This document shows, in pieces, positions 30,555 through 49,420 of a DNA stretch of 51,734 bases; the first letter of the stretch is position 1, and every line of letters begins with the position of its first letter. Under the pieces are notes generated by a model. That model did no database searches, was not told where the DNA came from, and was given only the letters and a program-made list of their open reading frames with translations. This DNA comes from Gammaproteobacteria bacterium (GTDB lineage: Bacteria; Pseudomonadota; Gammaproteobacteria; Pseudomonadales; Cellvibrionaceae). The translations under genes were made by a program, and so were the position numbers. The stretch is taken from the NCBI GenBank assembly GCA_005801205.1, contig SYDJ01000184.1, positions 1 through 51,734 of the forward strand, read 5' to 3'.

Positions 30555-30581
30555 TAAAATTGCGCCCTCTCGAAAGGGCGC
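30555..30581 (+). promoter_or_regulatory. Possible -10 box with GC-rich discriminator for the tRNA operon
   Basis: TAAAAT (30555-30560) is followed by a GC-rich discriminator TGCGCCCT, the form of stringently controlled stable-RNA promoters. The GCGCCCT (30562-30568) also pairs with AGGGCGC (30575-30581), which overlaps the 5' end of tRNA-Cys. No convincing -35 box was found, so confidence is low. Confidence 0.35.
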
Positions 30582-30650
30582 GATAGCAAAGCGGTTATGC
30601 TCTGGATTGCAAATCCAGCTAGTCCGGTTCGACTCCGGATCGCGCCTCCA
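30577..30650 (+). tRNA. tRNA-Cys (anticodon GCA)
   Basis: The 74-base cloverleaf has acceptor GGCGCGA/TCGCGCC, anticodon stem GGATT/AATCC around GCA, T arm TCCGG TTCGACT CCGGA and an encoded CCA end. It lies 116 bp after pgsA and is followed by tRNA-Leu. Confidence 0.97.
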
Positions 30651-30684
30651 CAATTCTTTTACTTGCCGAAAGTAAAAGCACTCT

Positions 30685-30770
30685 GCCCGAGTGGTGAAAT
30701 CGGTAGACACAACAGATTTAAAATCTGTCGACCTCTGGTCGTGCCGGTTCAAGTCCGGCCTCGGGCACCA
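30685..30770 (+). tRNA. tRNA-Leu (anticodon TAA)
   Basis: An 86-base class II tRNA with acceptor GCCCGAG/CTCGGGC, anticodon TAA in the CAGATT/AATCTG stem, a long variable arm, T loop GGTTCAAGTCC and encoded CCA. The integrase gene begins 156 bp downstream, which makes the 3' half of this tRNA the likely attachment site of the accessory element. Confidence 0.97.
30746..30770 (+). other. Probable attachment site (attB core) at the tRNA-Leu 3' end
   Basis: Tyrosine integrases with a DUF4102 domain insert at tRNA 3' ends and usually restore the tRNA. The integrase start at 30927 and the 3' end of this tRNA are adjacent. I found no second copy of the sequence in the window, so the other end cannot be located here. 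Confidence 0.5.
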
Positions 30771-30802
30771 TATATAGATTTACTGACATCCAGTAACATC
30801 CC

Positions 30803-30829
30803 AAAACCCGCGTAAATGCGGGTTTTTTT
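30803..30829 (+). terminator. Rho-independent terminator of the tRNA operon
   Basis: AAAACCCGC/GCGGGTTTT is a 9-bp perfect stem with loop GTAAAT followed by TTT. It stops tRNA transcription before the integrase gene. Confidence 0.9.
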
Positions 30830-30882
30830 ATGTTTTTTCGTCCATTATCGTCCACTGATATCCCGTTGCAGCCACATACATT

Positions 30883-30921
30883 TGGGGGCACAATTGGGGG
30901 CATATTTAATTCGTGGGGGCA
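30883..30921 (+). repeat. Three direct repeats TGGGGGCA before the integrase
   Basis: Copies at 30883-30890, 30895-30902 and 30914-30921 lie between the tRNA terminator and the integrase start. The third also provides the Shine-Dalgarno for ATG 30927. Repeats of this type next to an integrase gene fit arm-type integrase binding sites, which could let the integrase repress its own gene. Confidence 0.6.
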
Positions 30922-30926
30922 TCGGT

Positions 30927-32126
30927 ATGGTCGCGATAAATAAGCTAACTGAAGTTGCTATAAAGCAGGCTAAGCCCAAAGAGAAAAGTTATCGCATGGC
31001 TGACGGCGGCGGTATGTATTTAGAGGTGATGCCGAATGGCTCCAAATACTGGCGTCTTAAGTATCGATATGGAGGGAAGGAAAAGCGGCTTGCTTTTGGT
31101 GTTTATCCCGTAGTTTCGCTTGCCTCTGCGCGTGAAAAATGTCGTTTGGCGAGAGCGGAATTGTTGGAGGGATTTGATCCAGGCGAAGTTAAAAAACAAG
31201 ATAAGCTTAACAAAAAATCCACAACAGCAAACACCTTTGAATCGGTTGCTCATGAGTTTTTAGCCAAGCGTGTTCTTGAAGGAGCTGCTTCAATAACGAC
31301 AGATAAGATTCGTTGGATTGTCGATAAGAAGCTGGGTCCCTTTATTGGTAGCTTGCCCATATCAGAGATTACTCCAGTTCAGTTGCTTAATGCGCTGCGC
31401 CAGATTGAGGTTGATGGGTTGCACGAAACAGCTAATCGAGCAAAGAGAATTTCAGGGCAAGTATTTCGATATGCGGTTGCGACCGGAAAAACTGAGCGGG
31501 ACCCATCGCAAGATTTAAAGGGTGCTTTGATAATAAAAAAATCAGAGCATCGTGCTGCGATTACAGACCCCAAGGAGTTGCGTGGACTTCTAATTGCAAT
31601 TGATGGCTATAAAGGAACGCCTGAATTAAAAGCGGCATTACAGCTAACGCCTTTGCTGTTTCAGCGTCCAGGTGAAATTCGCCACATGGAGTGGAGTGAG
31701 ATCAATTGGACGGATGAATGTTGGGAAATTCCTGCTGAAAAAATGAAGATGCGATTGACTCATTTGGTTCCGCTGTCTAGCCAGTCGTTAAATATTCTTA
31801 AGTCTTTGCAACCGTTGACGTCCTATGGTCGCTATGTTTTCCCTAGTGCGCGAAAATGCGGAAAGCCTTTGTCTGAGGGTGGGGTCCGCGCTGCGTTACG
31901 GGCACTTGGCTATAGCAATGAACAAGTAACTCCGCATGGGTTTCGAGCTACTGCACGCACGATATTGGATGAGGTGCTTGGGTATAGGGTTGACTATATC
32001 GAGCAGCAACTAGCTCATGCGGTGCGTGATGCAAACGGAAGAGCGTACAACCGAACCAAGCATTTGCCTGAGCGAAAGCAAATGATGCAGGGCTGGGCCG
32101 ATTATTTGGATCATTTAAAGCAGTAA
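30927..32126 (+). CDS. DUF4102-type tyrosine integrase
   Basis: The protein starts VAINKLTEVAIKQAKP and contains the DUF4102 arm-binding domain (about 1-90; YRMADGGGMYLEVMPNGSKYW). A core-binding region follows, then the catalytic domain with R in FQRPGEIRHMEW, HGFRATARTIL (H-x-x-R) and a late Tyr in NGRAYNRTKHL. This is a P4/CP4-57-type integrase. I reject a 37-codon upstream extension to 30816, which overlaps the tRNA terminator and lacks a ribosome site. The gene defines the left end of the accessory region. Confidence 0.93.
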   Translation: MVAINKLTEVAIKQAKPKEKSYRMADGGGMYLEVMPNGSKYWRLKYRYGGKEKRLAFGVYPVVSLASAREKCRLARAELLEGFDPGEVKKQDKLNKKSTTANTFESVAHEFLAKRVLEGAASITTDKIRWIVDKKLGPFIGSLPISEITPVQLLNALRQIEVDGLHETANRAKRISGQVFRYAVATGKTERDPSQDLKGALIIKKSEHRAAITDPKELRGLLIAIDGYKGTPELKAALQLTPLLFQRPGEIRHMEWSEINWTDECWEIPAEKMKMRLTHLVPLSSQSLNILKSLQPLTSYGRYVFPSARKCGKPLSEGGVRAALRALGYSNEQVTPHGFRATARTILDEVLGYRVDYIEQQLAHAVRDANGRAYNRTKHLPERKQMMQGWADYLDHLKQ

Positions 32127-35925: not shown

Positions 35926-36204
35926 TTAAATACTGAAGCGTTGTTCGCAGTTGTTGCATTGATAATCGCTGAGAATGTGCTCATCAATACCTTTGCCCAC
36001 AGCGTGACCTGCTTGGCAGCCCGTGATGGCACCACCAATTAATCCGGCGAATGTCCCAGTAAACATACCAATTGGGCCAAAAAAGCTGCCAAGTCGATAA
36101 CCATAAATTGCTCCACCAAGTGCACCTATCGATGCTCCCGTTTTTCTAGCAGTGGTGGAGCAAGAAATGTTAGAGGAGTTGCAATTTGGACACGTTGTAT
36201 TCAT
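35926..36204 (-). CDS. Small protein with terminal zinc ribbon pairs and glycine-rich membrane core
   Basis: This 92-residue protein has CPNCNSSNISC at the start and a matching C-x2-C (CNNCEQ) at the end, which together could form one split zinc ribbon. Between them is a glycine-rich hydrophobic core (about 22-72; GASIGALGGAIYGYRLGS, then GTFAGLIGGAITG) like a glycine-zipper membrane hairpin. AGGTG precedes the ATG. Whether this belongs to the element or the host is unclear. Function is unknown. Confidence 0.75.
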   Translation of the reverse strand: MNTTCPNCNSSNISCSTTARKTGASIGALGGAIYGYRLGSFFGPIGMFTGTFAGLIGGAITGCQAGHAVGKGIDEHILSDYQCNNCEQRFSI

Positions 36205-36522
36205 CTTTCACCTCATTTTAATGATTGCGCCACGTCAAAAGTGGCTCACCAAAATGATGTATACTTGAATTTTTTTGGAGTTGATCGTTTAAGCTGAAAC
36301 TATTGAGCGTGTGATTGCTTTGCTGGGAGCGCAGAAATTAACTGCGCTTTTCTTGATGCCAATTTGAGCGCCTGTTTTTTTCTTGCACTCCGTCACAAAA
36401 CCAGTAAGATTCGGGCTCACTTAGGACTTCATTGGATGAAACGTGAATCGAATAAAAATCAACCAGAATCGTGTTGTTAACTGTATTGAAGCAAATCTGG
36501 CCTCTGTTAATGGGGTTGAATT
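36205..36522. other. Gene-free gap between the mobile element and the defence island
   Basis: I see no credible coding frame here. It holds a GCCAC/GTGGC inverted repeat (36229-36245), a TATACT box at 36260 without a clear -35, and a terminator-like hairpin at 36328-36352. GGGG precedes the next start. Confidence 0.5.
36328..36352 (+). terminator. Orphan terminator-like hairpin
   Basis: AGCGCAG/CTGCGCT is a perfect 7-bp stem with a 7-base loop followed by TTTTC. No plus-strand gene ends just before it, so it may end a short untranslated RNA or mark an old junction. Confidence 0.55.
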
Positions 36523-37989
36523 ATGCGTCTAGTTAGTTGGATTGGTCATGCTGATATAGAAGCCGTTGTGAAGCAGAGCTCTCAGCCTGGCGCTATTGCC
36601 TCCACGCTTAAAAATGTGACCTTTAGCGAAGTTCATCTTCTTAATAATTATACCGATGAGCGAGTACCGGCTTATTTAAGCTGGCTTGCCGATAATACTG
36701 AGTGCGCTCTTAGCTCGCGCTTAGTGTCTCTAAGCTCCCCCATTGATTTTCATGACATCTATATTGCGGCTGACCGTTTGCTCACTGATCTTGCAGCGGT
36801 GAGTAGTAAGCCTATAGCTGTTCTCTTAAGCCCCGGCACACCAGCAATGCAAGCTGTGTGGATTTTGCTTGGCAAAACCAAGCATAAAGTGACTTTCTAT
36901 CAGTCCACGCTTGAGCAAGGTGTGCAGAAGGTTGATATCCCCTTTGAGATTGCCGCTGAATTTATCCCTAAGCATCAAGATCAACAGGCGACTAGGCTGG
37001 CAACAGGCCAAGTGCCTACCAATGCCGCCTTTGACGATATAATCACTCAGAACCCGCATATGCTTGCATTAAAGCAGCAGGCTACAACCTTGGCGGCCAG
37101 AAATATCCCTGTGCTTATTTACGGCGAATCAGGTACTGGCAAGGAGCTTTTTGCCACGGCAATTCATAACGCAAGCCCCAGAGCTAAAAAGCCCTTTATC
37201 GCCATTAACTGTGGTGCCATTCCCCCAGAACTTATCGACTCAACACTTTTTGGGCATGTAAAAGGCTCATTCACCGGGGCGGCTAACGAGAGCGCAGGGT
37301 GTTTTCGGCAAGCCGATGGCGGCACCTTATTTCTAGATGAGTTTGGTGAGCTTGAACCAGCGGCGCAAGTTCGCTTGTTGCGTGCGCTGCAAAGTGGAGA
37401 GGTCCAGCCAGTAGGTGCGGCCAAATCTTCCAAGGTAGATGTACGCCTGATTACCGCGACCAATAAAGACCTTTTGAAGGAAGTTGTCGAAGGCCGTTTT
37501 AGAGAGGATCTATTCTATCGCGCAGCCATTGGCGTATTACATTTGCCTCCATTGCGCGTACGAGAGGGCGATTTACTCCTGTTGAGTGAGCGCATACTTG
37601 AATCAATTAATGCGCAGCTCGATCATGCGGAGCATAAGAAACTTTATGCTGACGCAAAAAATCTTATCTTAAAGCAGCCGTGGCGGGGTAACATCCGCGA
37701 GTTGCAGTCCACCTTGCTGCGTGCATCCTTATTTGCCGCTGGTAATAAAATTACTGCCGCTGACATTCAGCAAGCTCTATTCGCTATGCCAGAAGGTGTT
37801 GTGGATATTTTAGGACGTGATGTTTCACAAGGCATTGATATACAAGAGCTTATATCTGAGGTCATCCAGCACTATATTCCCCGTGCAATGGCAGAATCGC
37901 AGAATAATAAAACTAAAGCTGCCGAGTTATTAGGGTTTAAATATTACCAAACGTTTAATAACTGGATAAAAAAACACGGTATCGAATAA
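36523..37989 (+). CDS. CARF-domain sigma-54 activator (RtcR-like)
   Basis: The 488-residue protein has an N-terminal region of about 165 residues that begins MRLVSWIGHADIEA and contains VLLSPGTPAMQAVWILL (about 100-116). That is the pattern of CARF domains as in RtcR, which bind nucleotide ligands. The AAA+ domain follows: Walker A GESGTGKE (about 201), GSFTGA (248-253, a variant of GAFTGA that contacts sigma-54), Walker B TLFLDEFGEL, and sensor NIRELQST. A Fis-type helix-turn-helix closes the C-terminus (NNKTKAAELLGFKYYQTFNNW). It sits directly upstream of a sigma-54 promoter and hsdR, so it likely activates them in response to a nucleotide signal. Ligand unknown. Confidence 0.85.
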   Translation: MRLVSWIGHADIEAVVKQSSQPGAIASTLKNVTFSEVHLLNNYTDERVPAYLSWLADNTECALSSRLVSLSSPIDFHDIYIAADRLLTDLAAVSSKPIAVLLSPGTPAMQAVWILLGKTKHKVTFYQSTLEQGVQKVDIPFEIAAEFIPKHQDQQATRLATGQVPTNAAFDDIITQNPHMLALKQQATTLAARNIPVLIYGESGTGKELFATAIHNASPRAKKPFIAINCGAIPPELIDSTLFGHVKGSFTGAANESAGCFRQADGGTLFLDEFGELEPAAQVRLLRALQSGEVQPVGAAKSSKVDVRLITATNKDLLKEVVEGRFREDLFYRAAIGVLHLPPLRVREGDLLLLSERILESINAQLDHAEHKKLYADAKNLILKQPWRGNIRELQSTLLRASLFAAGNKITAADIQQALFAMPEGVVDILGRDVSQGIDIQELISEVIQHYIPRAMAESQNNKTKAAELLGFKYYQTFNNWIKKHGIE

Positions 37990-37993
37990 AAAT

Positions 37994-38010
37994 TGGCACG
38001 GCCTTGGCAA
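37994..38010 (+). promoter_or_regulatory. Sigma-54 promoter directly before hsdR
   Basis: TGGCACG-GCCT-TGGCAA matches the consensus TGGCACG-N4-TTGCW with one change, and the GG and GC elements are exactly 10 bases apart. Transcription would start about 38020, next to the ATG at 38021. The message would be leaderless, or use the in-frame ATG at 38039. The upstream gene encodes the required type of activator. Confidence 0.8.
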
Positions 38011-38020
38011 TAAGGCTGTC

Positions 38021-41000
38021 ATGGACAGAATAGAATTTATGCAATCACTCAACTTCGAACACCTTCGCCCGCACTGGCCTGAGTTGTCAGACCTCTGCGG
38101 CTTTGCGGAAAAATACACGGCCGATGATCCGCAAAGTGCGTTGGTTAAATTGCGCACCTATGCGGAAATCTTGGTGGGGATTGTTTATCGCGAATTTAAA
38201 TTGCCAAGTTTAGCAACCGATAAATTTGTAGATCGCTTACAGGCTGCGGCTTTTATAGCCGCAGTAGACGGTGCCATCCTCGATAAGCTTCACGCTATTC
38301 GCAAGGCGGGCAATAGTGCTGCACACGATGGTAAATACGTTAAAGGCGATAGCCTTTGGTTGCTGAAAGAAGCGCATATTCTGAGTTATTGGTTGCTGCT
38401 GTCTACCCAGCGCGGCAATAAAGCCGATGTAAAGGTTTTTGTTTCACCCGCACACTTAGAAGAAAAACCCAACGCTAAAAAAGCAGAAGAGCATCAAGCT
38501 CGCTTAGAGCAAGCGCTTGCTGAATTAGAAGCAGCTAAAGCCGCTGAAGAAGCTGCCGTGCGTGAAAACGCAAAACTTAAAGTTCAACTCAGCCAAACCG
38601 AACAAACCAAATTCCAGCAAGCCAGCGCAACCGCGAAAAATAGCCTCGAATTAAATGAGGCTGAAACGCGTCGCCGTATGATTGATACCGAACTTTATTC
38701 TCGCGGTTGGGATATAGATTTAGTTCACGGTAAAAACACCGAGCAAGTTACCCGCGAAGAAGAAGTGGATGGCCAGCCCACAGCAAGTGGCATTGGCTAT
38801 TGCGATTACGTTTTGTGGGATGACAACGGCAAACCACTTGCCGTAATAGAAGCCAAACGCACGCGCGAAAACGCAGAGAAGGGCCGTCAACAAGCCATTC
38901 TCTATGCGGATTCTTTAGAGAAAAAATACGATCAACGCCCCGTGGTTTTTTACACCAATGGCTACGATATTTTTATTGGCGACGATGCCCAAGGCTACAG
39001 CCCGCGCAAGCTCTACAGCTATTACAGCAAAGAAAGCCTGCAATATTTAATTCGCCAACGTACCGAACGTAAAGATCTCAATAAAACACCCATTCGCACC
39101 GACATCGCAGGGCGCGACTATCAAATTGAAACCATTACGCGCGTATGCGAACGCTTCGCGCAAAATTATCGTAAAGCCTTAGTTGTACAAGCTACGGGCA
39201 CCGGTAAAACCCGTGTATCCATTGGTCTCACCAAACGCATGATTGATGCGGGTTGGGCCAAGCGCATTCTATTTTTGTGTGACCGCAAAGAGCTGCGCAA
39301 ACAAGCAGGAAAAGCCTACAACGAATACCTAAGTGAGCCGGTTTATATTGTTGGCAAAAGCAAAAAATCAGATCGCCAAAATGCGCGCATTTATATTGCG
39401 ACATACCCCGGCATGATGACGATTATGGAAGAGTTCGATCCCGGTTTTTTTGATCTCATTATTGCCGATGAATCCCATCGTTCTATTTATAACGTCTATG
39501 GCGATGTATTCAAATATTTTGATGCTCTGCAATTAGGCTTAACCGCGACACCGGTAGAAATGATTAGCCGTTCCACCAGTCAATTATTCGGTTGCGATTA
39601 CAAATTGCCCACGGCGAATTACCCCTTAGAAAAAGCGGTTGAAGATAAAAACCTCGTGCCTTTTAAAGTGGTAAGCCACACCACACAATTTTTGCGCGAT
39701 GGCATTCAAGCAAAATCGCTGAGCGATGAACAAACCGCTGCACTAGAAGATCAAGGCCTAGACCCTAACGATTTAGATTTCGACGCAAAAGAAATAGATA
39801 AAGCCGTTTACAACAAAGACACCAACCGCGCCATATTGCGCAACCTTATGGAAAACGGCCTGCGCCTTGCCGATGGTCAAACCCTTGGCAAATCCATGAT
39901 TTTTGCGCGCAATATTGAGCACGCAGAGTTATTGGCGAAATTATTTGATGAAATGTATCCGCAACTGAACAAAGAAAGCGGGAGTAATTTTTGCCGAGTT
40001 ATTCACTCCAAGTTCGAGCGCGCCGAAGAACTGATAGACGATTTTAAAGAAACCAAAGATGCCAGTAAAAAAATTACCATAGCCATATCGGTCGATATGT
40101 TAGATACGGGTATTGATGTGCCTGAAGTGCTCAATTTAGTATTTGCCAAACCGGTAAAATCCAAAGTGAAGTTTTGGCAAATGGTAGGGCGGGGCACTCG
40201 CTTAAGTGAAAACTTGTTTGGCCCAGGCAAAGACAAAACTAAATTTCTTATTTTTGATCACTGGGGCAACTTTGAATATTTTGAAGTAGAGCATGACGAA
40301 GAAGAACAGCGACAAAGCAAATCGCTCAGCCAAAAATTATTTGAAGCCCGTGTGCAGTTTGCAACTGATGCTTTAGCCTTGGGCGATATTTCCAAGTTTG
40401 AAAAAATGGTCATGCTTATCAAGCAAGATATAGATGCGCTAGATGACAAATGCATCGCCATTAAAGACAACTGGAAACTCAAACACGAATTTGGTTCGCT
40501 TACAGTGCTCAATCAGTTTGCGCCCGCTACACGCACCGTCTTAATGGAAAAAATTGCACCGCTTATGCAGTGGCGCAACATTCAAGGCCAAAGCGAAGCC
40601 TTTACGTGGGATTTAGATACGGTGCGCGCACAACATGCCGCGCTCAACCACCCAGAGCAACGCGAAGCCGTAAAAGCCAATATCTTGCTTAAAGTAAAAT
40701 CGCTCTCTATGCACTTAAACCAAGTGCGCCAAAAATCGACTGTGGTGAATGCGTTACAGCAGGACGTCTTTTGGGATGTAATGAGTTTCGATGAGCTAGA
40801 AAAAGCTCGTACAGAATTGCGCAGTATTATTCACCTGCGCGACAAAGGCGCTTCACCGCCAACAGCCCCCGTGTTGATTTACGATATTCCTGAAAATACC
40901 GATTTGCTGGAAGTTAAAGAGCTCAAAACCAACATTCGCACAGTGGATTATGAAATCTATCGTCAAGAAGTTGAAAAAACGCTAGAGCCTTTATTCAATC

Positions 41001-41467
41001 AAGACCCTGTGCTGAAAAAAATTCGCGCAGGCGAAAGCATCTCTGAGGATGAATTAAATCAACTCAATGCATTAGTGCACACTCAAAATGCGCGGGTAGA
41101 TTTAAAACTGCTCAAAGAATTTTACCCCGAATCATCCGTGGGAATAGATCAACTCCTACGCACCATTATTGGGTTAGATGAACACGCCATTACTAAACGC
41201 TTTGAAACATTTATTCAAGAGCACCACATTAGCCTTAACGCCATTCAGCAACGCTTTTTGGCGTTGTTAAAAAGCGAAATTTGCCGCACTGGTCAAATGA
41301 GCATTAGCCGTTTATACGAACAGCCTTTTATTGCCCTGCATCAAGACGGTGTAGATGGTTTGTTTAAAGACGAGCAGGCCCAACTTATCGCCACCTTTGT
41401 GGCTAATTTTGCCGTTGAGCTAGGCACACTTAAAAAACAAACCACAACAATTAAGCGCTATTCTTAG
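38021..41467 (+). CDS. hsdR: Type I restriction enzyme, R subunit
   Basis: The 1148-residue protein begins with a DUF4145-like region (about 20-135) and a coiled coil (about 150-205). The PD-(D/E)xK nuclease domain follows (YCDYVLWD and VIEAKR, about 258-280). The SF2 helicase has ATGTGKTR (about 390), DESHRSI (about 480, a DEAH-type box), GLTATPV and MVGRGTRLS. The C-terminal domain contacts the methylase. It translocates DNA and cuts unmodified DNA together with HsdM and HsdS. The ATG at 38021 touches the predicted sigma-54 start site, and ATG 38039 is an alternative. Confidence 0.95.
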   Translation: MDRIEFMQSLNFEHLRPHWPELSDLCGFAEKYTADDPQSALVKLRTYAEILVGIVYREFKLPSLATDKFVDRLQAAAFIAAVDGAILDKLHAIRKAGNSAAHDGKYVKGDSLWLLKEAHILSYWLLLSTQRGNKADVKVFVSPAHLEEKPNAKKAEEHQARLEQALAELEAAKAAEEAAVRENAKLKVQLSQTEQTKFQQASATAKNSLELNEAETRRRMIDTELYSRGWDIDLVHGKNTEQVTREEEVDGQPTASGIGYCDYVLWDDNGKPLAVIEAKRTRENAEKGRQQAILYADSLEKKYDQRPVVFYTNGYDIFIGDDAQGYSPRKLYSYYSKESLQYLIRQRTERKDLNKTPIRTDIAGRDYQIETITRVCERFAQNYRKALVVQATGTGKTRVSIGLTKRMIDAGWAKRILFLCDRKELRKQAGKAYNEYLSEPVYIVGKSKKSDRQNARIYIATYPGMMTIMEEFDPGFFDLIIADESHRSIYNVYGDVFKYFDALQLGLTATPVEMISRSTSQLFGCDYKLPTANYPLEKAVEDKNLVPFKVVSHTTQFLRDGIQAKSLSDEQTAALEDQGLDPNDLDFDAKEIDKAVYNKDTNRAILRNLMENGLRLADGQTLGKSMIFARNIEHAELLAKLFDEMYPQLNKESGSNFCRVIHSKFERAEELIDDFKETKDASKKITIAISVDMLDTGIDVPEVLNLVFAKPVKSKVKFWQMVGRGTRLSENLFGPGKDKTKFLIFDHWGNFEYFEVEHDEEEQRQSKSLSQKLFEARVQFATDALALGDISKFEKMVMLIKQDIDALDDKCIAIKDNWKLKHEFGSLTVLNQFAPATRTVLMEKIAPLMQWRNIQGQSEAFTWDLDTVRAQHAALNHPEQREAVKANILLKVKSLSMHLNQVRQKSTVVNALQQDVFWDVMSFDELEKARTELRSIIHLRDKGASPPTAPVLIYDIPENTDLLEVKELKTNIRTVDYEIYRQEVEKTLEPLFNQDPVLKKIRAGESISEDELNQLNALVHTQNARVDLKLLKEFYPESSVGIDQLLRTIIGLDEHAITKRFETFIQEHHISLNAIQQRFLALLKSEICRTGQMSISRLYEQPFIALHQDGVDGLFKDEQAQLIATFVANFAVELGTLKKQTTTIKRYS

Positions 41468-41525
41468 GTACTTCAAAAATGAAAAATCATATAAACCCAT
41501 CTGCAAGAGTTATTAAAAGGTATTT

Positions 41526-42152
41526 ATGGAAATGATAAATTTTTTCGAAAAAGATATCAATTTGCTGGGGAAGCGAATTGAAGAAGCAATAGGTAAGGCA
41601 TCTGATGAAATCAGTAAGCAGAGAGGTCTCACTAAGGTGGATCTTGAGGAGCTGATTGTATTCGCAAGCGTCCAATTTGGTGATGCACTAGACCAGCGAA
41701 TAGAAAAAGCCAAGCATGAAACTGGTGAACTTATTTCGGCAAAGCTTACTGAATTTAAAACACAATTGAGTGACGCTGCAGAGAAACAGAAAAAAGCTAC
41801 CATCCGTAACGCAACTGTTGGTGTGTGCGGTGCAATTTTGGTAAGCGTCATTTCGCTTTTAACTAAGAAAAGTGGAGCTGACGGATTTAATGCTATTGAT
41901 GTATATCGCACTGTCATGGCGGCAATTGCCGGAGGGTATCTGGCTGCGATAATATTTAAATTCGCAAGAACTTACCTTGAGACCCCAGAAATTAAAAAGA
42001 ATTCTATCATTGCAGGAGCGTCTTATATCGATGCACTAAAACCCAAAGCACTAGGCCCTCACTTGGTCATATTTGCAACGGCCTTACTTGGCTGGGCTAT
42101 TTTAAATGAAACAGATTTTATCATCACGCTTCTTTCCAGTATAAAAAGGTAA
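41526..42152 (+). CDS. Unknown coiled-coil membrane protein, between hsdR and hsdM
   Basis: The 208-residue protein has a helical, charged N-terminal half (about 1-95) with coiled-coil character. Three hydrophobic segments follow (about 97-112, 130-148 and 180-198). No catalytic motif is visible. A clear AAAAGG ribosome site precedes it. It lies 58 bp after hsdR and 4 bp before the next gene, so the three are probably cotranscribed. It is not a known part of type I restriction systems; it could be a membrane effector or anchor. Confidence 0.72.
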   Translation: MEMINFFEKDINLLGKRIEEAIGKASDEISKQRGLTKVDLEELIVFASVQFGDALDQRIEKAKHETGELISAKLTEFKTQLSDAAEKQKKATIRNATVGVCGAILVSVISLLTKKSGADGFNAIDVYRTVMAAIAGGYLAAIIFKFARTYLETPEIKKNSIIAGASYIDALKPKALGPHLVIFATALLGWAILNETDFIITLLSSIKR

Positions 42153-42156
42153 AAAA

Positions 42157-42564
42157 ATGACACCATATTTCCCTGTTTTAAAAGCCATACTCCCATATCT
42201 TAAACCTCTTGTTTCAGCCGCCGCACCGTATTTTACAAAAGGTTCAGAAAAAAGTAGTAGTGAACAAAGCTTACAAGAAAAGCAAATAGCAGAGCTTCAA
42301 GTAGAGGTTAAAAACAATGCAGAATCTCTTCAAACGCTGGCAACTCAATTGCAGCAGACGATCACTGCTTTCGATGAGCGCGAACTAAACGATCAAAAGA
42401 GTTTTGTAAGTGTTAATGACGCATTGAAATCTCTAACTGAACAAAATGAAATGCTTAAAAATGCATTGCAGAAATCAATTAAAGATGCCCAAATTACTAA
42501 ATATATTGCGCTTTCATGTCTGTTCGCATCACTGGTTACAATAATTTCTGTGTTTTTAAAGTAA
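42157..42564 (+). CDS. Unknown coiled-coil protein with a C-terminal membrane anchor
   Basis: This 135-residue protein starts with a short hydrophobic stretch (YFPVLKAILPYLKPLVSAAA), has a central coiled coil (about 38-110; KQIAELQVEVKNNAESLQTL), and ends in a clear membrane helix (YIALSCLFASLVTIISVFL). Its AAAAGG ribosome site lies at the end of the preceding gene, 4 bp away. The pair probably works together at the inner membrane. Function unknown. Confidence 0.72.
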   Translation: MTPYFPVLKAILPYLKPLVSAAAPYFTKGSEKSSSEQSLQEKQIAELQVEVKNNAESLQTLATQLQQTITAFDERELNDQKSFVSVNDALKSLTEQNEMLKNALQKSIKDAQITKYIALSCLFASLVTIISVFLK

Positions 42565-42884
42565 GAAAAATAATTGAATTGCTTTTAAATAAGATCGGGG
42601 TATTTCATCCATCGGTCACTAGGTTGAAGTATGGGGATTGCCCTTTTGCTTATTTTAATCCTTAAAAGAAATAAGGCTTAGTGGCGTGGATAGAGGATCG
42701 GTATTTTCACATGCGTATAAAGTGGCCGAATAATGCCAGACGACCCAGTGAGTAAACGGTAGGGTTATATCGGGAATGAAATAGAGCAGATGTCGAGTGT
42801 GTTTCCTGCATATTTGCAATATGCATTTTTTTGAAAGGCGCTGCGCTTTTCCAGCCTCCCAAGTAAATTATTAATGAGAAAAAT
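42565..42884 (+). other. 320-bp gap before hsdM; possible untranslated RNA
   Basis: No open frame is convincing. It includes CTTATTT/AAATAAG (about 42649-42677), a strong terminator (42807-42832) and a GAAAgGCGC/GCGCTTTTC stem right after it. A non-coding RNA ending at the terminator is possible, but I found no clear promoter. Confidence 0.4.
42807..42832 (+). terminator. Rho-independent terminator between hsdR block and hsdM
   Basis: TGCATAT/ATATGCA is a perfect 7-bp stem with loop TTGCA, followed by seven T residues. It should reduce transcription from hsdR and the membrane genes into hsdM. Confidence 0.82.
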
Positions 42885-44441
42885 ATGATTACCGGTCAAC
42901 TCAAAAGCAAAATCGATAAACTCTGGGAAGAATTCTGGACGGGTGGCATAACCAACCCGCTTACCGTAATCGAACAAATTACATTTTTAATGTATGCCCG
43001 TTTGTTAGATATGAACGAAACCAGTGACGAGAAAAAAGCGCTGCGCACCAAAAAGCCATTCAATCGTCGCTTTAACGATGAGCAACAAAACATCCGTTGG
43101 CAAAATCTAAAACATATTGAATCGGCTGACGTGTTGCTTTCAACCATTCGCGATCAATTGTTTCCTTACTTTAAAACCGTAAACAACACCAATACGCTCT
43201 TCACCGAGTTTATGAAAGATGCCCAGCTCATGGTGCAAAAGCCGTCACTCTTAGTTAAAGCAGTGACGATGGTAGATGAATTACCGCTCGACAAAGGCGA
43301 TACCAAGGGCGACCTCTATGAATACTTGCTCAGCAAATTAACCACTGCAGGTATTAATGGCCAGTTCAGAACCCCGCGCCACATTATCCGCGCCATGGTG
43401 GATTTAATGGACCCAATCGCAACAGACCGCATTTGCGATCCTGCTTGCGGCACCGCCGGTTTTTTAAGTACTGCCTATGAATTTATGCTGCAAAAATACA
43501 GCTCAAAAGCGGGCACTATTTCTGAAAAAATTATTAACGAAAAAGGTGAGGCGGAAACGCAAACTTTATATACGGGTGATTTGTTAGCCGAGCATCGCAA
43601 ACATGTGGATACCGACATGTTTCATGGCTTCGATTTCGATGCCACCATGCTGCGCATTGCCGCCATGAACTTAGTTATGCACGGCGTAGCCGAGCCAGAT
43701 ATTCACTACCAAGACACGCTCAGCCAACGCTTTACAGAGCGACATCCAAATGCCGCCAATGAAGGCTTCGATATTGTTTTAGCAAACCCGCCCTTTAAAG
43801 GCAGTTTGGATGAAGAAGACGTTGCGCCCGAATTGTTGCGCATGGTGAAAACCAAAAAAACCGAATTGCTTTTTGTCGCGTTAATTTTGCGCATGTTAAA
43901 AATCGGTGGCCGCGCCGCTGTAATCGTGCCAGACGGTGTTCTATTCGGTTCATCCAACGCGCACCAACAATTACGTGAAGAACTTATCGAGCGCAACCAG
44001 TTAGAAGCGATTATCAGCTTGCCCTCTGGTGTATTCAAACCCTACGCCGGTGTAAGCACTGCCATTATGATTTTCACCAAAGGCGGCCAAACCGATCAGG
44101 TGTGGTTTTACGATTTAATGGCAGATGGCTATTCCCTAGACGATAAACGCACACCCATTCAAGACAACGACTTGCCAGATTTAATTGCGCAATATGAAAA
44201 ATACCGTAAAGCACGTGAGGCTGGTAAAAACACCAAAGAGTGGAACGACAAAAAACAAAAAGCATTTTTGGTAGATAAAGCCGATATTGCCGCACAAAAA
44301 TACGACTTAAGTATTAACCGCTACAAAGAAGTGGTGTACCAAGAAGAAACCTATGCACCGCCGAAAGAAATTCTGAAAGAGTTGAAAAAGCTTGAACAAG
44401 AAATTATGCAGGATTTGTTTGAGTTGGAGGCGATGTTGTGA
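42885..44441 (+). CDS. hsdM: Type I restriction enzyme, M subunit (N6-adenine methyltransferase)
   Basis: The 518-residue protein has an HsdM N-terminal helical domain (about 5-130), the SAM-binding motif [11 protein letters not shown] (about 185) and the catalytic motif [10 protein letters not shown] (about 300). A C-terminal helical tail ([19 protein letters not shown]) normally packs against HsdS. It methylates adenine in the recognition site to protect host DNA. Start ATG at 42885. Its stop overlaps hsdS by four bases (GTGA). Confidence 0.95.
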
Positions 44442-45598
44442 GTTGGCCTGTAGTTAGATTGGGTGATGTGGTTGACTTTATTGGTGGCTCTCAGCCACCA
44501 AAAGAAGAGTTTCTTTATGAGGAGCGTAACGGATATATTCGGATGCTACAGATTCGAGATTATAAGTCGGACGCTAATAAAACCTATATACCACTCAAAT
44601 TAGCGAGAAGGTTTTGTACCAAAGACGACATTATGATTGGCAGATATGGCCCTCCGGTGTTTCAAATACTCAGGGGTATGGAGGGTGCGTACAACGTCGC
44701 TTTAATGAAGGCGGAACCTACTAATAAAGTAGATAAAAATTATCTTTATCATTTTCTGAAGCAAGACTCGTTGTTTCGTTTGATTGATGGTTTGACACAA
44801 AGAACCGCAGGTCAAAGCGGCGTTGATATGGATGCGTTAAAGTCATATCCGATGATTCTTCCAGATCTATCGGAACAAAAACGCATCGCCGTCATCCTCG
44901 ACAAAGCCGATGCCATCCGCCGCAAACGCCAACAAGCCATAAAACTCGCCGACGATTTCCTTCGCTCCGTTTTTTTAGAAATGTTTGGTGATCCAGTGAC
45001 TAATCCGAAGGGGTGGGAGGTTAAAAGCTTAAAAAATTTAGCCTCAAAAATTGGTAGTGGTTCGACTCCGCGAGGAGGAAAAGAAGCATACATAAGTGAA
45101 GGCATTTCTCTTATTCGTAGCTTGAATATCCATGATGATGAATTTTTGCATAAAAACTTGGCATTCATCACAGATAAGCAGGCCAAAGAGCTATCAAACG
45201 TTACAATTGAAAAAAATGATGTGCTTTTAAATATTACCGGTGCGTCTGTTTGTCGGTGCTCGTTAGTGGATAACTCTGTTTTGCCTGCTCGAGTTAATCA
45301 GCATGTTTGCGTTATTAGGCCTAAAGATATGGAGCCAGAGTATCTGTTGCACATGCTCATATCCACATCCTATAAACAGCAACTTTTACGAATTGCGCAA
45401 TCCGCTGGCGCGACTCGTGAAGCACTTACTAAAGATCAGGTAGAGAATCTAAAAATACCTGTTCCACCTCAAGATCTGCAAAGAAAGTTCTCAACTATTA
45501 AAGGTGGCGTTAAAGCCATGTTGGCTAAGGCTCAGTATTCAAACGAAATACCATTATTTGAATCATTAAGTCAAAAAGCATTTTCAGGAATGATTTGA
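44438..45598 (+). CDS. hsdS: Type I restriction enzyme, S (specificity) subunit
   Basis: The 386-residue protein has two target-recognition domains: N-terminal (about 1-140, starting [14 protein letters not shown]) and C-terminal (about 195-345, starting [16 protein letters not shown]). A central conserved helix lies around 140-185 ([20 protein letters not shown]). This gives a bipartite recognition sequence that cannot be read from the protein. The recognition domains are more AT-rich than hsdM. GTG start overlaps hsdM. Confidence 0.93.
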
Positions 45599-45619: not shown

Positions 45620-47506
45620 ATGGAATTAAACTTTCTTCCGCTAGTAAATTCAAAATTTGAAATTCCGGTTTTTAGGCGGAGATCAGAAAACAATAAATCA
45701 AAACCGCACGGTTCCTTTGGGTTCCGATTGAAAGATGGTCTCTCAGGAGACTATGAGCGATTTGATGTGATGTGGGAAGAAAGTGAAGGGTTTGAACTCT
45801 ATCATGCGGATTCTTTTGAAAATCACGAGCTGACTAAGTTGTATATTTTCTCTCTAATGGAGAATGCGGCAAGAAAAAATAACATTGAAAGTTATTCGTC
45901 GAGAAAAAGCTTTTATAGGGAAATACGATTCATTACTCAAAAATATAATGAAGGCCAAAGAGAAATCCGGTTATCACCTTATTATCTTTCAGTTAATAAG
46001 CAATTTGGTTTTGTCGTGCAGCATCATTTTAAAATGAATACTGATCAAAAATTCAATAGAAATGTGCAAAAATTAAGTCTTTCACTGGATTCCAGATTTC
46101 AACAAAACAGAGACTATTATCTCGACGTCTTTAAGGTCATTAATGGTTTCTTTAAAAATAATCTTCCCCAACTTGAAAGGTTAGCTGACAACGTAATACT
46201 CGCCACAAGTATGGCTGAGTTGTTGGAAGATCGTTTATCTACCAAGCAATATACAGTGGGTAAAGGTCAGCAGAATATTTCTCAATATGCTGGGATAAAG
46301 AAAAATGGCCCTTACCAAAACGTTGATGGTCAAGTTAAGTATCTGTTTGTGTTCTCTGAATCATTAAGGACTCTAGCTAGAGAGGTGTATTCAGCTCTGG
46401 ATGGAAAGTTGTATTCGGGACTTTTTAGCGGGCTAAATGAAATGTTTCACTTACCATTTGGCAAAGAGAATGTTGATCATTATTTAATTTCTGACTATTC
46501 AGAGGAAACTCTATCGGCTGTCGCATCTAGGGCGATAGAGATGCGCGAGGGGGGGGCACATAAAGTTTGTGTCGTAGCTTTTTTTTCAGACTCAATGAGT
46601 GAAGAGCATAATCATTCGGTTTACTCACATCTTAAGCTTGAGGCTATAAAGGGTGGCTTTTTTGCTCAAGTTGTTAATCAAGAAACAATGGGTAAAAAGG
46701 AGCAACTTAAATGGTCAATTGCCAATATTGCACTCCAAATTTTTGGGAAGCTAGGTGGCATCCCTTGGCTGCTAAAGCCATCGCACCCTAAATGTTTAAT
46801 TTTTGGAATAGGGAGTGCACATGAGTTTGATGCTGATGGTTCAATCAAGAAATATACTGCTTATAGCGTATGCATAGATACTCAAGGAAAGTTTAATAAA
46901 ATTCAGCCTCTAGCTTCTTCATCTGATGAGAGCACTTATCTCGATCTTTTAAAAAGAGAATTAATTGGAGCCTTGCAGGATGGTGTGAGCCGTGATGTTG
47001 AGGAGTGTGTGGTACATCTTCCTTATAAAATCGAATGGAATGAAATGAAGTCCATTGAGGATGCAGTTAAGTCGGCTGAAACAGATCACCCTTTGGGTAT
47101 AAAGATAATAAAAATTAATACTCACAATCGTTTCTTCGGATTTTCTTCTCACGTTACGAAAGTACCCTATGAAAGTACATTCGTGGAGCTTTCTTCCAAG
47201 GAGTATTTGATTTGGACTGAAGGTCTACAGTACGGGAAGGAGTTGGTAAATAAGAGAATCTCTGAGCCAATTCATGTTGAATTTTTGTATGGTGATATTA
47301 GGGATTATGACGAAGCAAAAACTTACCTTCAAGATATTATAAATCTGACAGGGGCGAACTGGCGGGGGTTTAATTCTAAGGCTCAGCCCATTTCAATTTA
47401 TTATTCTAAGTTAATTGCAGATTTCATGAAGAGATTTGGTGCGTATGAATCTGTAAATGATTTTTCGGTCATGTCTCAAGAATCCTTTAATCCTTGGTTT
47501 TTATAG
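45620..47506 (+). CDS. Prokaryotic Argonaute, catalytically inactive, PAZ-less
   Basis: The 628-residue protein has an N-terminal part (about 1-235) with IRLSPYYLSVNKQFGF and QKLSLSLD, as in the N/L1 (or APAZ-like) region of Argonautes. The MID domain (about 240-378) carries the 5'-phosphate pocket Y335-x3-K339, Q350 and K377 in FGKLGG. The PIWI domain (about 380-628) ends with NWRGF and PISIYYSKLIA. The slicer residues are lost: Gly398 replaces the first Asp in LIFGIGS, and His466 is where the RDG Asp would be. It probably binds a guide and target and signals to a partner. SIR2 follows 10 bp after its stop. No PAZ is visible, so it is neither a standard long-A nor a simple short form. Confidence 0.87.
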   Translation: MELNFLPLVNSKFEIPVFRRRSENNKSKPHGSFGFRLKDGLSGDYERFDVMWEESEGFELYHADSFENHELTKLYIFSLMENAARKNNIESYSSRKSFYREIRFITQKYNEGQREIRLSPYYLSVNKQFGFVVQHHFKMNTDQKFNRNVQKLSLSLDSRFQQNRDYYLDVFKVINGFFKNNLPQLERLADNVILATSMAELLEDRLSTKQYTVGKGQQNISQYAGIKKNGPYQNVDGQVKYLFVFSESLRTLAREVYSALDGKLYSGLFSGLNEMFHLPFGKENVDHYLISDYSEETLSAVASRAIEMREGGAHKVCVVAFFSDSMSEEHNHSVYSHLKLEAIKGGFFAQVVNQETMGKKEQLKWSIANIALQIFGKLGGIPWLLKPSHPKCLIFGIGSAHEFDADGSIKKYTAYSVCIDTQGKFNKIQPLASSSDESTYLDLLKRELIGALQDGVSRDVEECVVHLPYKIEWNEMKSIEDAVKSAETDHPLGIKIIKINTHNRFFGFSSHVTKVPYESTFVELSSKEYLIWTEGLQYGKELVNKRISEPIHVEFLYGDIRDYDEAKTYLQDIINLTGANWRGFNSKAQPISIYYSKLIADFMKRFGAYESVNDFSVMSQESFNPWFL

Positions 47507-47516
47507 TAGATAAAGT

Positions 47517-48566
47517 ATGAAAACAGATTCAGTTATGTTTTTGTTAGGAGCTGGTGCAAGCGTAGATGCAACCATACCAATGGCTATTCAGATGCTGGAA
47601 AAGATTGAAGATTTAATTCGTGATGATGAGGATCTTCAAAATCTCTACTTTTATCTTAAAAGTGCGATTCTTTACCAGCGAGGATTGGAGGGAGATTTCA
47701 ATACAAAAGTTGGGGTTGAGGATCTTTTAGGCGTTATTGAAGAGCTTAGCCAAAAGCATAGAAATAGACTATATCCCTTTGTTGGTGCGTGGAGTCCACA
47801 TTTAATAAATGTGGCTAAGTCTGATTTCTCTAATATTAAAAAGTTGGATCATTTGATCCGATCAAATCTTGTTGACTGGGTTCAACCAAAAAATGGATCT
47901 AGAGCCGGTTCATACTTCCAAAAGCTTGAGAATTTTCGCAGAGAATATGGAAAATCAATATCTGTTTTCACATTGAATTATGATCTTTTGGTGGAGCGAA
48001 ATTTAGTGCAGTTAGGTTGTTTAGTGGAGACCGGTTTTGATGAATCTGACAAATGGAATGCTTCTCGATTTGAAAGAAATGAATATGATAATGTAAATTT
48101 TTATGTTTACAAGCTTCATGGTTCAATAGATTGGGAACGAGAGTTAGATGAAAGGGATGATTGCCTAAAGAAGCGAGAAAACCCTGTTAAAAATCCTGAT
48201 TTGATATTTGGGGTAAACAACAAACTCAACTCAGGTGATCCCTATCTTTTTTATGTCCATGAGCTAAGGCGCCATACATTAGAAAATGCCACTAAGCTTA
48301 TTTTTGTTATTGGGTATAGCTTTAGCGATCAATATATCAACAAGCTACTTAGCCAGGCACTTAGAAGCGATTCTACAAAGCGCATCATTAACGTATCTCC
48401 AGATGCAGATTCTAGAAACGGCGAGATAATTACGGAGCTGAGATTGGAGCAAAATCCAAGTGCTATCGTTCCATTGAGCACAACTGCTAAAGAGTTCTTT
48501 GAAAATAAATTAACTGTTGAGTTATGTCAGAACAACTTTGTAGTTGGATCTGACACTCCGTTTTGA
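47517..48566 (+). CDS. SIR2-family protein (probable NADase effector of the Argonaute)
   Basis: The 349-residue protein has GAGAS (11-15), FTLNYD (151-156), YKLHGS with His201 (198-203) and VIGYSFSD (264-271), the residues of the SIR2-like Rossmann fold. In Argonaute-linked systems, SIR2 domains deplete NAD+ when the guide pairs with invader DNA, causing growth arrest or death. There is no APAZ domain here, unlike SIR2-APAZ of SPARSA. The gene begins 10 bp after the Argonaute stop and overlaps the next gene by four bases. NADase activity is inferred. Confidence 0.87.
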   Translation: MKTDSVMFLLGAGASVDATIPMAIQMLEKIEDLIRDDEDLQNLYFYLKSAILYQRGLEGDFNTKVGVEDLLGVIEELSQKHRNRLYPFVGAWSPHLINVAKSDFSNIKKLDHLIRSNLVDWVQPKNGSRAGSYFQKLENFRREYGKSISVFTLNYDLLVERNLVQLGCLVETGFDESDKWNASRFERNEYDNVNFYVYKLHGSIDWERELDERDDCLKKRENPVKNPDLIFGVNNKLNSGDPYLFYVHELRRHTLENATKLIFVIGYSFSDQYINKLLSQALRSDSTKRIINVSPDADSRNGEIITELRLEQNPSAIVPLSTTAKEFFENKLTVELCQNNFVVGSDTPF

Positions 48567-49420
48567 AATATTTAAGGGACTCGTTAGAAAAAGCTATGCG
48601 ATATAGCATTCAAGAAGCAGATGCCTACGGCGGTGTATTACTAACTTGCAGTGGGAAAATTCTTCTGCGTGAACCCACAAACCATTTTGATGGATATGTG
48701 TGGACCTTTGCTAAAGGTAAGCCGAGCGTAAGTGACACGCCAGAGAAAACGGCCCTGCGCGAAGTGGAGGAGGAAACCGGTTATGTCGCGGAAATTGTTG
48801 ATGTACTGCCTGGTGTTTTTAAAAGCGGGCTCAGTAGTAATGCTTATTTTGTTATGCGCCACCATGGCTCGCAAAAAGCCTTCGACTGGGAAACCTGGGG
48901 AACACGCTGGGTTAATTTTGATGAGGCAGAGCGGCTTATTAATGAAACAACTAACGTTAAAGGGCAGCAGCGTGATCTCGCTGTCTTAGCGGCAGCTAAA
49001 CAATGGTTTCTTAATAATAAAACGGTTGTGTTGCCCGAAGCAGAGCGGGAGTATTTGTTAGCGGCTAGGGCAAGTTCTTGGGAAAATTTACAACCCTTGC
49101 CTGAACAGCTTGTGAAAATTGAATTAAATATTGGCTTCACTCATGAGCAATCTAATCTGATCCGTTTGGGATTTGTTCCCAAGGTTATGGAAGATAAATG
49201 GTTTTCATATTTTAAAAACAATGTGCTTCACCAATTCAGAAGTTGGACAGGTTTTTGTATCGACGAAATTTATTTTGAATCAACGTCTACAGGGTTACAT
49301 GCGTTGTATGCCAAGGTAAATCGTGATTCACGAGAATATTCACAGCAAAATGAGCTATTAGATGCTGAGCGAATTAAAAGCATGCTCCGCCATTTAGCAA
49401 GCCAAGACTTGAGTAATTGA
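48563..49420 (+). CDS. Nudix hydrolase with an unknown C-terminal domain
   Basis: The N-terminal domain (about 12-165) has a Nudix box ending TALREVEEETGY (about 62-73). The C-terminal domain (about 180-285) contains VPKVMEDKWFSYF and HQFRSWTGFCIDEIYFES, which I cannot assign. Nudix enzymes cleave nucleoside diphosphates such as ADP-ribose, the product of SIR2 NAD cleavage, but the substrate is unknown. The TTG start at 48563 forms a TTGA overlap with the SIR2 stop, which suggests coupling. ATG at 48596 is the alternative start. Confidence 0.85.
   Translation: MKYLRDSLEKAMRYSIQEADAYGGVLLTCSGKILLREPTNHFDGYVWTFAKGKPSVSDTPEKTALREVEEETGYVAEIVDVLPGVFKSGLSSNAYFVMRHHGSQKAFDWETWGTRWVNFDEAERLINETTNVKGQQRDLAVLAAAKQWFLNNKTVVLPEAEREYLLAARASSWENLQPLPEQLVKIELNIGFTHEQSNLIRLGFVPKVMEDKWFSYFKNNVLHQFRSWTGFCIDEIYFESTSTGLHALYAKVNRDSREYSQQNELLDAERIKSMLRHLASQDLSN

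Follow-up and report, generated by a model that had tools for sequence, protein, structure and literature searches.

The stretch analysed here (the window) comprises 51,734 nucleotides (nt) of contig SYDJ01000184.1 (assembly GCA_005801205.1) from a gammaproteobacterium of the family Cellvibrionaceae. It contains the genes of a type I restriction-modification system, directly preceded on the same strand by a gene for a sigma-54-dependent activator with an N-terminal CARF domain (Table 1). The activator stop codon and the ATG of hsdR, the gene of the restriction subunit, are separated by 31 bases, and a −24/−12 element of the sigma-54 type lies within this gap. Comparisons with relatives of the activator and with homologues of HsdR support hsdR as the target of both the activator and the sigma-54 promoter. 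They also point to two further candidate elements, E1 and E2, inside the activator gene itself.

The activator matches the PADLOC profile PDLC01995 (RtcR_PspF2--CARF_AAA_HTH) over its full length (residues 3–488 of 488, 660 bits), and its AAA+ core matches the Pfam family Sigma54_activat (220 bits). Its translation contains Walker A (GESGTGKE) and Walker B (LFLDE) motifs and a variant of the GAFTGA loop, GSFTGA. Together with a helix-turn-helix (HTH) region, assigned by the PADLOC label only, these are the features of a bacterial enhancer-binding protein. Since a CARF profile gave three weak matches only against the sequences in the PDB (Csm6, E = 0.57), the N-terminal domain was compared by fold. 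An AlphaFold model based on 50 aligned relatives (mean predicted local distance difference test score of 90) was searched against the PDB with Foldseek, which returned 50 matches with E ≤ 0.001, headed by Csm6 (E = 4e-6). Judging from their titles and from general knowledge, we take all 50 to be CARF proteins. On the predicted model, the N-terminus thus has a CARF fold and is a member of the CARF superfamily; a motif, SPGTP-M, is kept in this domain among the relatives. The CARF-like N-terminus and the intact AAA+ core with GSFTGA, proposed in a preliminary description made from the sequence alone, are therefore both confirmed. The protein falls below the curated cut-off of the NCBIfam equivalog for RtcR proper (NF038308; 302.7 bits, cut-off 650). 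Neither rtcB nor rtcA was found among the scanned neighbours in the window, and RtcB was absent from a search of the genome, which is 78% complete and in which RtcA was not searched. The same genome encodes sigma-54.

The promoter element TGGCACGGCCTTGGCA (TGGCACG-GCCT-TGGCA) begins 5 nt past the activator stop codon and has GG-N10-GC geometry. In a scan of the window it is the sole site that scores 8 out of 9 in our own scoring scheme, and three others reach 7. A score of at least 8 arises by chance in 0.01% of dinucleotide-shuffled 90-nt segments, and in 7 of 33,839 background windows. Counted from the start, PMC3844500 places the GG of sigma-54 promoters at −24 and their TGC at −12. Numbering the GG as −25/−24 and the C of the GC as −12 places the predicted +1 at 38020, so that the A of ATG 38021 is +2.

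Relatives of the activator were gathered from whole genomes (7, including the window), plasmids (7) and genome contigs (the best 80 of 377). The seven whole-genome members were chosen by score; the PADLOC profile matched 353 of 369 genomes, nearly all through the AAA+ domain, and this figure is not a count of the family. Among phage records, no evident member of the family was present in the 8 of 66 matches listed. The 94 oriented loci, designated by L numbers, were reduced to 89 by removing a duplicate (L005, identical to L113), three loci with a truncated or cut activator (L073, L092, L105) and one at a contig end (L108); these yield 85 distinct 90-nt segments around the activator stop codon. 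From a later sample (L123–L165), we left out the window itself (L123), L149 (L113 again) and the fragments L157, L164 and L165. Of the 38 loci run, 11 were set aside, as the last 300 nt of their activator gene were identical to one already used. Two of the remaining 27 (L141, L159) have short activators, leaving 25 intact ones. For a control based on HsdR, its N-terminus was searched against 381 genomes of the order, giving 30 places in 29 genomes. Removal of L173 (contig edge) and L195 (fragment) left 28 loci; several of these genomes recur in the other samples.

A sigma-54 element scoring at least 7 out of 9 is present near the activator stop codon in 67 of the 85 distinct segments. By comparison, 0.2% of dinucleotide shuffles reach this score, as do 94 of 33,839 windows taken from other parts of these loci; ahead of the activator start, only 1 of 89 loci has such an element within 90 nt. 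In the later sample, the element is near the stop codon in 21 of the 25 intact activators; it is found at +203 in L134, and L145 and L146 have a degenerate −12 box. A search for such activators beside hsdR, as the preliminary description had proposed, located an HsdR homologue downstream in 65 of the 89 loci. The HsdR-based control approaches the association from the other side. An element lies within 60 nt of the HsdR start in 17 of the 19 loci with an upstream activator (window included) and in 0 of the 9 activator-free homologues. When only matches at 27–35% identity are considered, the element is found in 5 of 7 loci with an activator and in 0 of 8 without. The shuffles, the relatives and the HsdR-based control together rule out a chance match, and the claim of a sigma-54 promoter with exact GG-N10-GC spacing directly after the activator stands.

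Because the promoter follows the activator gene so closely, an enhancer must sit in coding DNA or beyond. We therefore compared codon identity in 9-codon windows with codon shuffles that keep both the protein and the codon usage. The matrix for E1 described below was derived from a near group of 52 loci, picked by an hsdR ATG at 24–32 nt from the first base of the element, a range whose outer values are empty. Synonymous constraint is strongest at activator residues 366–388 (z 36–42; window mean 3.8, standard deviation 5.2). In the same 29 genomes this peak has a z of 36, and no window of HsdR rises above 11. Loci where hsdR is farther away and those with other cargo likewise have their highest window here (z 7–8). 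The underlying element, E1, has the core TAAGAAA-TTT...AAA-TCTTA, with the conserved bases symmetric about the centre as judged by eye. A programmed frameshift at its A-run was considered and set aside, as the run is interrupted by G or T in L034, L075 and L037. Upstream of the activator gene, no gapped palindrome occurs in more than 3 of the 85 loci, and one word, TTTACTAT, is common to 14 of the 85.

Seven copies scoring at least 16 with the E1 matrix occur outside intact activator genes, and column-shuffled matrices gave none in ten trials. Four of the seven are followed by a sigma-54 site, in L092 (where an activator gene is split and its 3′ part displaced), L114, L045 and L077, and the last three are non-coding. 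In L114, where the in-gene E1 has been lost, a divergent copy of 36 bits lies about 100 nt before a sigma-54 site. L045 has also lost its in-gene E1 and has a copy of 23 bits just beyond the stop codon, likewise with a sigma-54 site about 100 nt further on. L077 retains the in-gene E1 and has, in addition, a decayed, stop-filled duplicate of the activator 3′ end that bears E1, an exact consensus for integration host factor (IHF) and the promoter. Overall, a promoter directly follows the activator gene in 73 of the 77 loci with an in-gene E1 versus 1 of the 12 without (89 loci; Fisher test, 4e-10, an optimistic value). In the later, non-identical loci, 23 of the 25 intact activators have an E1 score of at least 12, the exceptions being L147 and L148. 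E1 is probably an enhancer for the activator, because it combines strong synonymous constraint with non-coding reappearance before sigma-54 promoters in three loci. It could instead be an unrelated element, such as an RNA structure, an internal antisense promoter or the site of another protein, given that it was detected by conservation alone and that the dyad is not exactly palindromic. The non-coding copies before a sigma-54 promoter in L114, L045 and L077, and the joint absence of in-gene E1 and adjacent promoter in 11 of 12 loci, make this unlikely.

A second peak of synonymous constraint (activator residues 430–447, z 16.7–18.5) contains E2, which is midway between E1 (−370) and the promoter. 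The window sequence CAAGGCATTGATA, equivalent to TATCAATGCCTTG on the minus strand, fits WATCAANNNNTTR, which we take to be the IHF consensus. The exact consensus is found at this place in 29 of the 52 near loci and only twice at other places in these genes (76,704 nt). The genome contains four matches to the HU/IHF family, IHF and HU being counted together. From the sequences compared, this candidate IHF site is a common, non-universal part of the cassette.

The distance between the promoter and hsdR is more tightly kept. An in-frame ATG lies 26–29 nt from the first base of the element in 52 of the 65 hsdR-linked loci (27 nt in 41, 28 in nine, 26 in one and 29 in one), which would put its A between +1 and +4. 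Among the 46 full-length HsdR proteins of the near group, pairwise identity falls as low as 39%, and all five clusters formed at 60% identity have spacings of 26–29 nt. In the later sample, 16 of the 19 loci with an intact activator and HsdR have the ATG at 27–28 nt. L077 retains the 27-nt spacing even though its promoter is 442 nt past the activator. Six of the 65 loci have longer leaders (L034, 56 nt; L037, 53; L103, 54; L066, 51; L075 and L076, 64), and in the later sample L131 has 39 nt, with AGGAGGA before the ATG. In another six (L002, L008, L096, L100, L102, L104), the match to HsdR sets in only near residue 196, and no start is assigned. In 14 loci with other first genes, the first long open reading frame, its start assigned mechanically, begins 51–112 nt past the element in 13; in the remaining locus, L006, an open reading frame overlaps the element. 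In L166, which apparently keeps the activator only as a remnant, promoter and ATG have moved to 33 nt apart. The predicted start at about 38020, adjoining ATG 38021, is thus supported by the geometry in the window and by the spacing in relatives, and the hsdR message is expected to begin no more than 3 nt from ATG 38021.

The preliminary description had left open whether this message is leaderless or is translated from ATG 38039. The first seven codons of HsdR mostly read M-D-R-I-x-F/Y-M, and a second in-frame ATG occurs in 37 of 37 distinct sequences, at codon 7 in 34 and at codons 6, 6 and 5 in L004, L109 and L110. Codon 4 differs chiefly at its third base, and length changes within codons 1–7 preserve the frame. 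The first ten codons show the strongest synonymous constraint in HsdR (z 11). Where codon 3 encodes arginine, it is AGA except in L033 (AGG) and L109 (CGC), although many of the hosts are Pseudomonas; this hints that the opening bases of the message are constrained. In an alternative that leaves sigma-54/CARF control in place, translation would begin at ATG 38039 after an 18-nt leader, and the tight spacing would serve some other need near +1. Both the universal second ATG, with conserved codons after it, and the activator-free loci L174, L180, L182 and L190, whose nearest ATG corresponds to codon 7, would suit this alternative. Even so, we consider it decidedly improbable. No Shine-Dalgarno is seen ahead of 38039, codons 1–7 vary in the manner of coding sequence and change in number in-frame (L004, L109, L110), and a Shine-Dalgarno precedes codon 1, the equivalent of 38021, in L066 and L131, which have leaders. 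Because of this placement and the protein-coding style of variation in codons 1–7, a leaderless start at 38021 is favoured; 38039 is nevertheless also kept across the relatives. These patterns can be read as an older start near codon 7 to which an upstream start on +1 was added later, a reading that L185 misfits unless its activator was lost.

An inverted repeat, GGCCTT/AAGGCT, spans the −12 element and a Shine-Dalgarno-like AAGG. Its arms pair more often than expected: 139 of 204 cells are Watson-Crick in 34 distinct sequences with 27-nt spacing, versus 103 ± 5 with the arms shuffled (0 of 2000), and 53 of 84 cells in 14 later-sample loci, versus 39 ± 3.5 (0 of 5000). At the four free pairs, G-T is no commoner than A-C (11 vs 11). 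The repeat may be a repressor site, or it may mask a Shine-Dalgarno on transcripts that read through. A rival explanation, in which hsdR is expressed mainly by read-through from the activator gene, with its translation controlled by the AAGG Shine-Dalgarno and the repeat and with the sigma-54 site only boosting, would agree with the 31 bases from activator stop to ATG and with a Shine-Dalgarno-like stretch in the 3′ arm in many loci, but is very unlikely. No more than 3 of the 6 pairs form in L040, L068, L079, L086, L090 and L116, where no Shine-Dalgarno is seen by eye; the L077 promoter and ATG hold their spacing 442 nt from the activator; and the 11 vs 11 count does not favour pairing in RNA.

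Taken together, it is likely that the locus is a self-contained, signal-gated expression cassette for the type I restriction-modification operon. What the sequence comparisons show is the set of parts with its usual order and spacing, the dependence of the promoter on the presence of an activator, and DNA-level constraint on E1 and E2; every binding, transcription and translation step in the following scheme is inferred, as are the ligand and how far the operon extends. The CARF domain would keep the AAA+ domain inactive until a ligand arising from infection or RNA damage binds. The activator would then occupy the E1 dyad, some 370 bp ahead of +1 within its own gene, and IHF at E2, midway, would bend the DNA so that the AAA+ ring could remodel sigma-54 polymerase at 37994–38009. 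Transcription would begin within about 2 nt of ATG 38021, giving an essentially leaderless hsdR message that probably also carries the genes after hsdR, namely hsdM, hsdS and, here, the Argonaute and SIR2 genes. Type I restriction is usually regarded as always on, and sigma-54 promoters have almost no basal activity. A dedicated sigma-54 switch with a sensor domain therefore implies induced restriction, and the operon looks like a defence that is turned on only by a signal.

A more far-reaching scenario can be drawn, to which we would give little credence at present. Until the CARF domain detects an RNA or nucleotide produced by infection, such as a cut tRNA with a 2′,3′-cyclic phosphate (the ligand of RtcR), the operon would stay silent. 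A leaderless message would suit ribosomes damaged in the same event by loss of the anti-Shine-Dalgarno. Restriction would then be an induced, last-line or self-sacrificing response and not standing immunity, and the cassette with its enhancer inside the activator gene would be a portable switch before several unrelated defence systems.

Several observations weigh against the signal-gated cassette or its details. At the promoter, the −14 base in the window is G, where T is usual, and the exact +1 may be 1–2 nt off. The activator-free HsdR homologues of the control are mostly distant (27–35% identity to the query; 63% for L174), and L185 has both ATGs without an activator or an element. For E1, the scoring of all 52 near loci is circular, as the matrix was derived from them, and neither the shuffles nor the Fisher test takes common descent into account, which makes the p-value optimistic. 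E1 is weak despite a promoter in L002 (7 bits) and L147 (2 bits); L098 has E1 and no promoter was found there; and E1-like words outside the gene in L087, L075 and L076 are not followed by a sigma-54 site. The IHF consensus is exact in only those 29 of 52 near loci, and in only 3 of the 13 relatives with a window-like HsdR (the window, L085 and L066). The inverted repeat has no explanation in the proposed mechanism, ATG 38039 could still act as an initiation site, and control of hsdR only is not distinguished from control of the whole operon.

Table 1. Features of the activator–restriction locus in the window
Feature	Position	Strand	Basis
CARF-AAA+-HTH sigma-54 activator, RtcR_PspF2 type, 488 aa	36523-37989	+	PADLOC, Pfam, relatives
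CARF sensor domain, residues 1-140, confident part of model	36523-36942	+	AlphaFold, Foldseek
AAA+ domain and lid, residues 173-421 (Walker A, GSFTGA, Walker B)	37039-37785	+	Pfam, translation
E1, 32-bp imperfect dyad, candidate activator binding site, centre about −370	37635-37666	+	synonymous conservation, non-coding copies
E2, candidate IHF site (consensus WATCAANNNNTTR) inside the activator coding sequence, centre about −186	37828-37840	-	motif, second synonymous peak
Sigma-54 −24/−12 promoter TGGCACGGCCTTGGCA	37994-38009	+	conserved near activator stop in relatives
Inverted repeat GGCCTT/AAGGCT over −12 element and Shine-Dalgarno-like AAGG	38000-38017	.	pairing test
Predicted +1	38020	+	numbering from −12, geometry only
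hsdR, type I restriction subunit, 1148 aa, predicted leaderless; second conserved in-frame ATG at 38039	38021-41467	+	PADLOC REase_I, 860 bits
208-aa protein between hsdR and hsdM	41526-42152	+	no family match
135-aa protein between hsdR and hsdM	42157-42564	+	no Pfam/NCBIfam match; PADLOC 0.003 and weaker
hsdM	42885-44441	+	PADLOC MTase_I, 611 bits
hsdS	44438-45598	+	PADLOC Specificity_I, 266 bits
Long prokaryotic Argonaute	45620-47506	+	PADLOC pAgo_II, 685 bits
Argonaute-associated SIR2 protein	47517-48566	+	PADLOC Aga_SIR2, 409 bits

The occurrence of hsdR, hsdM and hsdS together defines a type I restriction-modification system, and all genes from hsdR through the SIR2 gene are on one strand. 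The gap between hsdS and the Argonaute gene is 21 bases; the Argonaute may be part of the hsdRMS operon, and a second defence system may thus share the control of the restriction operon. No Argonaute or SIR2 match was found in the other loci tested, whose flanks are of limited length. A gene for a NUDIX-domain protein (Pfam; 48563–49420) overlaps the SIR2 gene by 4 nt, and its product may belong to a SIR2/NAD effector module. A sigma-70 scan of 36000–45000 for a separate hsdM promoter gave 12 matches, versus 17.6 in shuffles. In relatives, hsdM begins 23–52 nt after the hsdR stop codon in 11 of the 48 loci listed. Ten near loci chosen for a gene between hsdR and hsdM have RmuC (6), a YhcG nuclease (2) or Schlafen/AlbA (2) there, and the two small proteins of the window (41526–42564) occupy the slot of these RmuC, YhcG or Schlafen-like genes. 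Farther upstream, a phage-type integrase gene (30816–32126) just after tRNA-Cys and tRNA-Leu genes (region 30577–32126) suggests a genomic island; no exact repeat of at least 16 nt of the tRNA-Leu end occurs elsewhere in the window.

Other cargo is found behind members of the activator family. A VWA-PP2C-kinase-helicase operon is present in L054 (by Pfam) and in L035 and L036 (by annotation), a MoxR-vWA operon in L087, and ZorA with an HNH helicase, in divergent orientation, in L101. L101 and L107 have a sigma-54 site scoring 8 out of 9 on the minus strand, upstream of and divergent from the activator; sigma-54 control of Zorya in L101 is possible.

The cassette offers a route to what a CRISPR-independent CARF domain senses, and E1 plus the −24/−12 element form a DNA signature for locating further targets of the activator family. 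Strains of Pseudomonas and Marinobacter are among the carriers of the cassette. Induced restriction also raises the question of how self-DNA is protected at induction. Phage stress is already tied to one sigma-54 activator, PspF of the psp system.

The pairing of such activators with restriction is already known. Makarova et al. (2014; PMC4012209), in the excerpts used here, describe proteins combining CARF, NtrC-like AAA+ and HTH domains as often beside restriction-modification genes and predict them to be sigma-54 activators. By this description the window activator belongs to their CARF-NtrC type, and the statement in the preliminary description that no type I system regulated like this had been described was too strong as regards the pairing. 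The same excerpts are silent on a promoter, its spacing, an enhancer, an IHF site and a leaderless message, and on cargo of the Zorya, kinase or MoxR-vWA kinds; in PMC7159879, CARF appears only in a reference. Searches of the open-access literature did not turn up the geometry of the promoter, the candidate enhancer within the gene, the IHF site or the wider range of cargo; the E1 dyad and the IHF consensus are new here. The closest regulatory parallel is RtcR with rtcBA, which likewise combines CARF, sigma-54 AAA+ and HTH domains in an activator of one neighbouring operon (PMC7790460, PMC9650030). Its ligand is given as 5′ tRNA halves with a 2′,3′-cyclic phosphate (Hughes et al. 2020; PMC7790460), and RtcAB is also required in E. 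coli (Kotta-Loizou et al. 2022; PMC9650030). RtcR controls RNA repair, whereas the system in the window has a restriction operon, a candidate in-gene enhancer and a near-zero predicted leader. PspF resembles the window system in being a sigma-54 activator that works with IHF (a title cited in PMC7175178), but has AAA+ and HTH domains only and no sensor domain, according to the excerpts of PMC4012209, where the window activator has CARF. Type I restriction-modification islands with RptR (PMC12255303) similarly have a dedicated regulator of a type I defence island; RptR, however, is a small repressor acting at a TAGCTA site, in an abstract that does not mention sigma-54, whereas the predicted regulator here is a sigma-54 activator.

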